Shown here: positions 35,439-36,572 of the stretch, piece by piece
How the letters are laid out: each line of letters begins with the position of its first letter
Numbering within the stretch: position 1 is the stretch's first letter
Assembly (NCBI RefSeq): GCF_014349155.1
Contig: NZ_JACSIT010000051.1
Location: 1 to 61,365 of the forward strand
Reading direction: 5' to 3'
Length of the DNA stretch: 61,365 nucleotides
DNA from: Neolewinella lacunae
Lineage (GTDB): Bacteria; Bacteroidota; Bacteroidia; Chitinophagales; Saprospiraceae
Notes under the pieces: generated by a model
Seen by the model: the letters and a program-made list of their open reading frames with translations, nothing else
Told to the model about the DNA's origin: nothing
Databases searched by the model: none
Made by a program: the position numbers and the translations under genes

Positions 35439-35485
35439 GATGTGTCTTGGGCTTCGGCTCAAATCATTACCAAGTCAATAATCTT

Positions 35486-35521
35486 GAAAGTTAAGTGCTC
35501 AATTTCGAGCACTTAACTTTC
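35486..35521 (+). terminator. tuf terminator
   Basis: A perfect 15-bp stem GAAAGTTAAGTGCTC/GAGCACTTAACTTTC with a 6-nt loop, followed by ATTTTCTT. Confidence 0.85.
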
Positions 35522-35539
35522 ATTTTCTTAGGAAAGTCG

Positions 35540-35547: not shown

Positions 35548-35603
35548 CGGCCGATTAGGAAGGACTCCACCCTGAACGCAGGGCTGGAAAAACAAAATCA
35601 CCC

Positions 35604-35704
35604 ACGGGCGTAGCTCAATTTGCCTACGGCAGCTACTTCGTGGTGGTAGAGCACTGGTCTCCACCGCCGCTAAGACAGCCACGCAGTGCAAACCAGGGGC
35701 TGGG
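35604..35704 (+). pseudogene. broken tRNA-Trp 5'-half copy 1
   Basis: Begins with the intact 5' acceptor ACGGGCGTAGCTCAAT. It has about 24 extra bases in the D-loop (TGCCTACGGCAGCTACTTCG...), then GGTAGAGCACTGGTCTCCA, then a 26-nt insert in the anticodon loop right after the CCA anticodon, then AAACCAGGGGCTGGG. T-arm and 3' acceptor are missing, so it cannot fold as a whole tRNA alone. Confidence 0.8.
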
Positions 35705-35748
35705 CTCCTCGCTCCCCTGAACGCAGGGCTGGAAAAACAAAATCACCC

Positions 35749-35849
35749 ACGGGCGTAGCTCAATTTGCCTACGGCAGCTACTTCGTGGTGGTAGAGCACT
35801 GGTCTCCACCGCCGCTAAGGCAGCCACGCAGTGCAAACCAGGGGCTGGG
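35749..35849 (+). pseudogene. broken tRNA-Trp 5'-half copy 2
   Basis: Same structure as copy 1, with the D-loop and anticodon-loop inserts at identical positions and one or two base changes (AGGCAGCC instead of AGACAGCC). Confidence 0.8.
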
Positions 35850-35893
35850 CTCCTCCCTCCCCTGAACGCAGGGCTGGAAAAACAAAATCACAC

Positions 35894-35966
35894 ACGGGCG
35901 TAGCTCAATCGGTAGAGCACTGGTCTCCAAAACCAGGGGCTGGGAGTTCGAGTCTCTCCGCCCGTG
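35894..35966 (+). tRNA. tRNA-Trp (CCA), intact
   Basis: 73 nt; acceptor ACGGGCG/CGCCCGT with discriminator G, D-arm GCTCAATCGGTAGAGC, anticodon stem CTGGT/ACCAG with loop CTCCAAA (anticodon CCA), T-arm GGGAGTTCGAGTCTCTC. This is the conserved tRNA-Trp located between tuf and secE in Bacteroidota. It is flanked by interrupted half copies on both sides, which is not usual. Confidence 0.95.
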
Positions 35967-36325
35967 CAAGTTAAAAGGCTGTTGAACGAAACGGTCTTAC
36001 TCATTCACGAACGGAAAGATGTACTCTCCAGGCACCAGGTCTCCAACCGCCGCAGGCAGCCGCGTAGCGAAACCAGGGGCTGGGAGTTCGAACTTAGCGA
36101 AGCGGTCTCACGGCCGTACGCAGTAGGACGTAGTCTCTCCGCCCGTGCAAGTTAAAAGGCTGTTGAACGAAACAGTCTTCCTTATTCACGAACGGAAAGA
36201 TGTACTCTCCAAGCACCAGGTCTCCAACCGCCGCAGGCAGCCGCGTAGCGAAACCAGAGGCTGGGAGTTCGAACTTAGCGAAGCGGTCTCACGGCCGTAC
36301 GCAGTAGGACGTAGTCTCTCCGCCC
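35964..36325 (+). repeat. two tandem 181-bp units carrying the 3' half of tRNA-Trp
   Basis: Units 35964-36144 and 36145-36325 each start within the 3' end of a tRNA-Trp (GTGCAAGTTAAAAGGCTG). They contain a spacer (AACGGAAAGATGTACTCTCC), a broken 3' half and again end at CGCCC. They are almost identical to each other. Confidence 0.9.
36034..36147 (+). pseudogene. broken tRNA-Trp 3'-half copy 1
   Basis: Starts at ACCAGGTCTCCAA (3' strand of the anticodon stem region), has a 24-nt insert after loop position 37, then AACCAGGGGCTGGGAGTTCGA. A second insert of about 40 nt in the T-loop (ACTTAGCGAAGCGGTCTC...) follows, then TCTCTCCGCCCGTG. The 5' acceptor and D-arm are missing. Confidence 0.8.
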
Positions 36326-36328
36326 GTG
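36215..36328 (+). pseudogene. broken tRNA-Trp 3'-half copy 2
   Basis: Same layout and same insert positions as the preceding copy, with a few substitutions (ACCAGAGGCTGGG). Confidence 0.8.
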
Positions 36329-36346
36329 CAAGTTCTCGGAAAGAAA

Positions 36347-36380: not shown

Positions 36381-36572
36381 ATGGACAAATTCGGACTTTA
36401 TCTGCGGGAAAGCTACAACGAACTGGTACACAACGTGACCTGGCCGAGCTATAAAACCTTGCAGACCAACACCATCCTGGTCCTTGCTGGCTCCGCGATT
36501 TTTGCCCTCGTCATCTTCTTCATGGATGTGATTTGGGACAACCTCGTCACCTTCATCTACGACTTGGTTTAA
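36381..36572 (+). CDS. secE: preprotein translocase subunit SecE
   Basis: 63 residues, the single-helix bacterial SecE that clamps SecY in the translocon. The amphipathic segment (FGLYLRESYNELVHNVTWPSYKTLQ) contains the conserved WPS/TW-type turn (VTWPSYKTL). It is followed by one membrane helix (ILVLAGSAIFALVIFFMDVIW). Its position between tRNA-Trp and nusG is the standard one, 12 bp ahead of nusG. Confidence 0.96.
   Translation: MDKFGLYLRESYNELVHNVTWPSYKTLQTNTILVLAGSAIFALVIFFMDVIWDNLVTFIYDLV

Follow-up and report, generated by a model that had tools for sequence, protein, structure and literature searches.

The gap between tuf and secE in Neolewinella lacunae raises the question of why one intact tRNA-Trp gene should be bracketed by tandem partial copies of itself whose loops are interrupted by short hairpins. 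The gap lies in a 61,365-nucleotide stretch of the genome, here called the window. Our best explanation, which we judge to be about evenly poised between right and wrong, is that the array lacks an enzyme of its own but belongs to a class of tandem duplications, anchored at tRNA genes, that small free-standing GIY-YIG endonuclease elements of Bacteroidia produce.

The tRNA-Trp array between tuf and secE

An earlier note on this DNA had described two 145-bp units with the 5' part of tRNA-Trp, one intact gene and two 181-bp units with the 3' part, and this layout of the tuf-secE gap is borne out by the sequence, ARAGORN and Rfam (Table 1). The upstream halves hold tRNA-Trp positions 1-51 and the downstream halves hold approximately position 30 onward. 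The D, anticodon and T loops are all interrupted by inserts, here called plugs, as the note had it, but not every half carries all of them: plugs occupy the D and anticodon loops of the 5' halves and the anticodon and T loops of the 3' halves, and no half has all three. The claim that the anticodon-loop insert falls after position 37, the site of archaeal and eukaryal tRNA introns, survives in part. Because of a repeated A, common to both placements, 36/37 and 37/38 are equivalent sites for the plug of the 3' halves, whereas the upstream plug is at 36/37; the agreement with the intron site is loose. An intron or split tRNA of the archaeal or eukaryal type is ruled out by the intact, uninterrupted tRNA-Trp. 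The notion of a tRNA assembled in trans from the halves is likewise unsupported, given the intact gene and the presence of partial copies at many different tRNAs.

Table 1. Coordinates of the features of the tuf-secE gap in the window
Feature	Position	Second copy	Strand	Remarks
Perfect 16-bp inverted repeat 3' of tuf	35485-35522		.	Counterparts in related genomes
Upstream unit 1, 145 bp	35570-35714		+	Hairpin CCCTG-AACG-CAGGG, spacer, 5'-partial tRNA-Trp (positions 1-51)
5'-partial copy 1, tRNA-Trp positions 1-16	35604-35619	35749-35764	+	
D-loop plug, 25 nt	35620-35644	35765-35789	+	By reading, hairpins whose TNC loops are GNA in reverse complement
5'-half anticodon-loop plug, 26 nt	35664-35689	35809-35834	+	At 36/37
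Upstream unit 2, 145 bp	35715-35859		+	2 differences from unit 1
Intact tRNA-Trp(CCA)	35894-35967		+	ARAGORN; Rfam 70.6 bits
Downstream unit 1, 181 bp	35951-36131		+	Begins within the T loop/acceptor portion of intact tRNA-Trp
3'-half anticodon-loop plug CCGCCGCAGGCAGCCGCGTAGCG	36047-36069	36228-36250	+	Two GNA mini-hairpins; 23 nt between matched segments
3'-partial copy 1, tRNA-Trp positions 37-58	36070-36091	36251-36272	+	
T-loop plug, 40 nt	36092-36131	36273-36312	+	At 58/58
Downstream unit 2, 181 bp	36132-36312		+	5 differences from unit 1
3'-partial copy 1, tRNA-Trp positions 58-74	36132-36148	36313-36329	+	
secE, gene downstream of the array	36381-36572		+	By reading

Two further palindromes accompany the array. 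The inverted repeat GAAAGTTAAG...CTTAACTTTC is found 3' of tuf in most of the genus members examined and in an altered form in some other members of the family, and is probably the tuf terminator. The hairpin at 35570-35583 precedes tRNA-Trp copies in several genus members (CCTTG-AACG-CAAGG and other forms elsewhere) and seems to change between species by compensatory substitutions.

Distribution of the array in the genus

The comparison of this gap among relatives that the earlier note had called for covered 20 genus genomes, that of N. lacunae among them; G009, in which the contig is without tuf, was left out. By reading, partial copies of tRNA-Trp are present in 13 of the 20, in degenerate form in G014, and absent from seven. 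None were seen in nine genomes outside the genus, the 3' side being only partly covered at three of the loci (L023, L024 and L029). Six of the contigs that bear a plugged 5' partial copy have names: Lewinella sp. W8, JB7 and IMCC34191, Neolewinella persica DSM 23188, Lewinellaceae SD302 and a metagenome bin. No stand-alone GIY-YIG gene was seen by reading in any of the 20 gaps.

This distribution refutes the suggestion that the array is a misassembly. The N. lacunae genome is a draft of 154 contigs with runs of N at two other tRNA arrays, yet like arrays were assembled separately in other genomes, named isolates among them, and the units are not identical but differ at two sites upstream and five downstream; an assembly or sequencing artefact is accordingly the least probable of the explanations considered, and close to negligible.

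On a tuf tree the array needs six gains or losses, five of them forced by well-supported branches, and its presence is not significantly clustered (84 of 500 shuffles were as low), so that the tree is compatible with an array inherited from a common ancestor and then lost in places as well as with one gained several times. The upstream copy number varies across species from 0 to 6. In most species the acceptor bases of the half copies, by reading, match those of the species itself (GGGCG, GGGTG or GGGTA), which indicates recent duplication or gene conversion.

The anticodon-loop plug, a dispersed double hairpin

The anticodon-loop plug, of about 24 nt, consists of paired mini-hairpins with GNA loops, roughly xCC-GNA-GGx AGC yzC-GNA-Gzy. 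Among 11 aligned plugs, the rows of which were picked for simple anatomy, 98.5% of the cells are paired, and two-sided changes number 11, where shuffling gives a mean of 3.8. Such compensatory changes, and the occurrence of arrays in 13 of 20 species, would fit plugged half-tRNAs that are kept as functional small RNAs, either decoys or regulators. The covariation can also reflect a family of hairpin elements, however, and the patchy presence of the arrays, with at least five changes forced on the tuf tree, their variable copy number, the degenerate array of G014 and the involvement of different tRNAs in different species all count against such a function, which we think unlikely.

The earlier note had proposed a search for the inserts outside tRNA-Trp, and they were found. 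A strict form of the plug pattern, with at most one mismatch, gave 62 matches in the N. lacunae genome versus two in the reversed control, and a looser pattern, matched exactly, gave 52 versus none. The looser exact pattern gave 211 matches in the 20 other genomes of the genus versus seven in the control, with G012 lacking any, and nine versus eight, i.e. background, in 39 genomes outside the genus. The plug is therefore a dispersed family restricted to the genus. A generic scan for double hairpins over 454 kb, mostly around tRNAs, returned 11 pairs (eight with a 3-nt spacer) compared with five (two) in one Markov resample; this signal is small, and the whole-genome patterns are better evidence.

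Among 30 matches in the N. lacunae genome that were read in context, two of them those of the window, many lie among GAATGCGT-like repeats. At L064, L075 and L080, for example, arrays of GAATGCGT-like 8-bp repeats include the 24-nt double hairpin and other short GCTACCGCAC repeats. Two partial tRNA-Arg copies of the N. lacunae genome likewise carry the double-hairpin plug in their anticodon loop. What had been suggested in the earlier note, a palindromic mini-element that targets tRNA loops, thus stands for the most part, the plug family being dispersed and loops being favoured at several tRNA genes and in several genomes; the plug may insert there actively. A REP-associated Y1 transposase was considered as its mobilising agent and rejected, since the two PF01797 genes of N. 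lacunae adjoin other repeats and have no plug motif beside them. These genes (L110 at C123:378391 and L111 at C73:83499) are each flanked by a long REP-like repeat array of their own that is unrelated to the plug.

Dispersal of the plug favours an origin of the array without any GIY-YIG enzyme at tRNA-Trp, in which replication slippage at tRNA hairpins formed the partial copies and a mobile 24-nt double mini-hairpin later entered the loops of the redundant copies. We regard this as a real possibility, though not the probable course of events. Against it, copies of the dispersed family are infrequent, at some one per 100 kb, and yet tRNA-Trp and tRNA-Arg partial copies repeatedly have one in a loop.

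Partial copies at other tRNA genes

Partial copies were sought on the same strand within 1 kb on each side of tRNA genes. They were found in the genus at 10 of 38 tRNA genes in N. lacunae, seven of 42 in G013, seven of 47 in G015 and one of 15 in G005, and outside the genus at four of 39 in G021, three of 13 in G033 and one of 14 in G034; judged by Rfam counts, the tRNA genes of G005, G033 and G034 are partial samples and those of G015 and G021 are nearly the whole set. With swapped flanks the frequencies were 2/380 for N. lacunae, 4/420 for G013 and 9/470 for G015, and on the opposite strand 0/38, 0/42 and 0/47, respectively. The partial tRNA copies of N. lacunae exceed chance. One further array of this genome, at tRNA-Pro CGG (L094, on C123), has tandem 3' ends in units of about 88 bp with a T-loop plug, and six copies flank a run of N.

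In 20/22 cases in N. lacunae, 12/12 in G013 and 23/23 in G015, a segment that reaches the 5' end alone is located upstream and one that reaches the 3' end alone downstream; both deviating cases come from a single tRNA-Glu fragment that was counted for two genes. Since 5' parts upstream and 3' parts downstream follow from every tandem duplication that has one of its ends in a tRNA gene, the layout needs no special mechanism. To this extent it is also what slippage would produce.

Scored only in copies that match the tRNA on both sides of the plug, 12 of the 38 plugs in this census lie in the D loop, 12 in the anticodon loop, 12 in the T loop and two in a stem, which places 36/38 in the three loops, or 26/28 when distinct sequences are counted. 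Two of these sites, the anticodon and T loops, coincide with the usual crossover regions of tyrosine recombinases in tRNA genes, and the 3' tRNA fragments downstream look like remnants of attachment sites, so that the arrays might be scars of elements that integrated there and were later lost. Integration of this kind does not account for 5' partial copies upstream, plugs in the D loop, short tandem units or the GIY-YIG genes found in some units, and the inserts are hairpins without evident duplication of a core, the downstream anticodon-loop plug showing just one A. We consider recombinase scars improbable, a little more so than retained small RNAs.

Small GIY-YIG genes beside tRNA genes in Bacteroidia

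In other genomes, partial copies of tRNA-Asp, -Ala, -Glu, -Val and -Arg have small ORFs of about 80-95 aa near them that encode GIY-YIG proteins. Among solved structures, UPF0213 proteins (E 8e-11) and the structure-specific SLX1 (E 6e-4) come closest to these. An alignment of five such proteins matches 118 of 198 genomes of the order at E 1e-8 and 151 of 295 genomes of the class at E 1e-12. All five came from tRNA-adjacent genes, and the sets of best matches are therefore ascertained toward such genes, for which a set of low-scoring matches is a partial remedy. ARAGORN found a tRNA beside the small GIY-YIG gene at 25 of the best 30 loci in the order, at 25 of the best 29 in the class, and at 18 of 20 regions around the lowest-scoring order matches among the matches listed. 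Overall a tRNA is present at 68 of 79 loci and absent at 11; loci in the draft genomes are often interrupted by contig ends, as are four of the five tRNA-less loci in the best-30 order set. If chance is taken to place a tRNA at 4% of loci, the binomial probability of tRNAs at 50 of 59 is about 1e-60. Among shorter GIY-YIG matches in five genomes, four of six are beside tRNAs, and those on G021 C99 and G015 C8 are away from any tRNA. As controls, long GIY-YIG proteins (473-712 aa, assigned to the UvrC or DnaQ type from their length) had a tRNA at none of 10 loci, and loci of the double-hairpin pattern had one at a single locus of 30, namely tRNA-Trp.

The arrangement of gene and tRNA is also regular. 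At the 68 loci every tRNA is on the strand of the enzyme. In the two best sets the tRNA precedes the enzyme at 38 of 50 loci, 24 of these 38 at a distance of 30-60 bp, and follows it at 12; at six of the 50 the GIY-YIG match overlaps the 5' end of the following tRNA by 1-17 nt, one of the six (L266) having an abnormal tRNA copy that ARAGORN calls tRNA-Stop. Partial tRNA copies accompany 24 of the best 30 loci in the order and 21 of the best 29 in the class (45/59 together). Loci inspected in detail have hairpins within, or in place of, a tRNA arm or loop. The plugs at enzyme loci fall in the D, anticodon or T loop in 16 of 25 cases (14 of 21 distinct) and are scored as stem or variable loop in nine of 25, and a few of the inserts are not palindromic.

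Two of these loci have features of their own. At G332:C9:906043-910389 there are at least 10 GIY-YIG copies at an exact spacing of 457 bp, an extreme tandem amplification. At L251 (G021 C37) the anticodon arm of tRNA-Val copies beside a GIY-YIG gene is replaced by a hairpin with a TTC loop, and two of the copies are called tRNA-Glu by ARAGORN; such copies can mislead tRNA annotation.

We found no description of chromosomal tRNA-linked GIY-YIG elements in the open-access literature, and the passages on tRNA in a survey of the GIY-YIG family mention no such element (PMC1564403).

Relationship of the array to the GIY-YIG elements

The tRNA-Trp array has partial copies disposed 5' upstream and 3' downstream of an intact tRNA, and hairpin plugs in the tRNA loops of those copies. 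A protein search found no stand-alone small GIY-YIG gene in the N. lacunae genome, and no GIY-YIG ORF lies within the array. The runs of N in two other tRNA arrays of this genome could hide a GIY-YIG copy. Enzymes are uncommon in the arrays in general: one is nearby at two of the 25 tRNA genes with partial copies in the four genus genomes (G013 Asp and G015 Ala) and at two of the eight in the three genomes outside the genus (G021 Glu and G033 Arg), i.e. only four of the 33 surveyed arrays. That N. lacunae lacks the gene and few arrays hold one speaks for slippage followed by hairpin insertion; what slippage leaves unexplained is the tie, across the class, between like anatomy and GIY-YIG genes.

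The two types of array can be compared at tRNA-Asp. The enzyme-less tRNA-Asp partial copy of N. lacunae, CCCTGTCA-TCCCGCAAGCCTGCGGGA-CGGGTTCGAG, the middle part of which is a palindrome, is built like the tRNA-Asp arrays that carry the enzyme in the sister species G013 and G017, e.g. CCCTGTCACGG-TCCCGATTTGATCGGGA-CGGGTTCGAG. With the same anatomy in the presence and absence of the enzyme, both types of array look like one kind there. For tRNA-Trp a link to the enzyme is suggested by the anatomy held in common, that is, half copies and plugs at like loop sites. The types of plug differ, those of tRNA-Trp being mostly double GNA mini-hairpins and those of enzyme loci mostly single longer palindromes. 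Since no stand-alone small GIY-YIG gene was found in the N. lacunae genome, we file the tRNA-Trp array as a likely enzyme-less relative and not as a full element.

A hypothetical model for the arrays

If the arrays derive from GIY-YIG elements, a GIY-YIG enzyme acting in cis or in trans would have cut within, or close to, a loop of a tRNA gene. Recombination repair would then have duplicated the half-gene and its flank as a tandem unit, for which phage SegB provides a parallel. Selection would have retained an intact copy, the tRNA being needed, with the observed geometry of 5' halves upstream and 3' halves downstream as the outcome. A hairpin plug in the cut loop of the spare halves, where plugs are indeed observed, would make the site uncuttable, in the way that an insert protects the allele of a homing element from cutting. 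Thereafter units may expand, shrink and become homogenised with the intact gene, as suggested by copy numbers of 0 to 6 and by half copies that mostly have their own species' acceptor bases. In N. lacunae the enzyme gene may have been lost, or may never have arrived at the tRNA-Trp locus. That plugged half-tRNAs accompany GIY-YIG genes in many related bacteria suggests that they are traces left by a selfish element that targets tRNA genes.

A bolder form of this model, which we put forward tentatively as possible but doubtful, is a selfish element, widespread in Bacteroidia, of which our searches found no description. Its minimal GIY-YIG nuclease would recognise the hairpin shape of a tRNA gene in DNA, and the element would multiply as tandem half-tRNA units and shield these half copies of its own from cutting by palindromes that plug their loops; the tRNA-Trp array would be an enzyme-less satellite of it, and the dispersed 24-nt double hairpin would be the plug spreading beyond tRNAs. 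If this were true, the tRNA genes of a whole bacterial class would house a minimal homing-type nuclease with plugged half-tRNAs as its fingerprints, which would explain fragments and tandem copies of tRNAs in Bacteroidia that are otherwise puzzling. The phage SegB mechanism would be extended to chromosomes, and a testable case would be at hand of DNA hairpin loops that serve both as targets and as protection.

Comparison with known systems

Several known systems share part of this anatomy. At tyrT of E. coli there are reportedly 178-bp tandem repeats, each with the 3' end of tRNA-Tyr, and the downstream units of the present array, of about 180 bp and also with the 3' end of their tRNA, are alike in this respect. 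To our knowledge the tyrT repeats have no loop plugs, no 5' halves and no GIY-YIG gene. The plug resembles the palindromes of REP/RAYT systems, which are short and dispersed, but those of REP/RAYT flank their own Y1 transposase gene, and at both Y1 genes of N. lacunae the repeats are others. Mitochondrial DNA contains double-hairpin and repetitive hairpin-forming elements described as small, dispersed and of uncertain mobility (PMC2800124); unlike the double-hairpin elements as described there, the plug is bacterial, about 24 nt long, has GNA triloops and resides in the loops of partial tRNA copies.

The closest parallel is SegB, the free-standing homing endonuclease of the tRNA cluster of T-even phages. 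SegB of phage T6, a GIY-YIG enzyme, is described as cutting inside tRNA genes and as required for tandem amplification of tRNA-segB, which may be facilitated by microhomology that the 5' end of the tRNA has with the 3' end of segB; the motif RAWTSGAAC is common to 23 of 83 of its cut sites (PMC13096335). In our own comparison, the motif in that account becomes GTTCSAWTY on the complementary strand, which is similar to the sequence of the T loop, the site of many plugs. The Bacteroidia loci are like SegB as so described in that a GIY-YIG gene lies beside tRNA genes, in the tandem amplification of a tRNA-nuclease unit, and, at some loci, in the overlap or microhomology of the nuclease 3' end with the tRNA 5' end. 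The passages on SegB in that source mention no half-tRNA copies with hairpin plugs (PMC13096335), in contrast to the Bacteroidia loci. A GIY-YIG catalytic domain adjoins tRNA genes at the loci of relatives and not in the window. The Bacteroidia genes are chromosomal, and their proteins of about 80-95 aa have only the catalytic domain, whereas SegB has 221 aa; by Pfam this domain alone is common to both, and no full-length likeness to SegB is seen, the similarity of the profiles being weak (hhalign probability 0.5 over 20 columns). With only the catalytic domain in common, the Bacteroidia protein is not filed as SegB, and what it may share with SegB is at most a similar manner of working.
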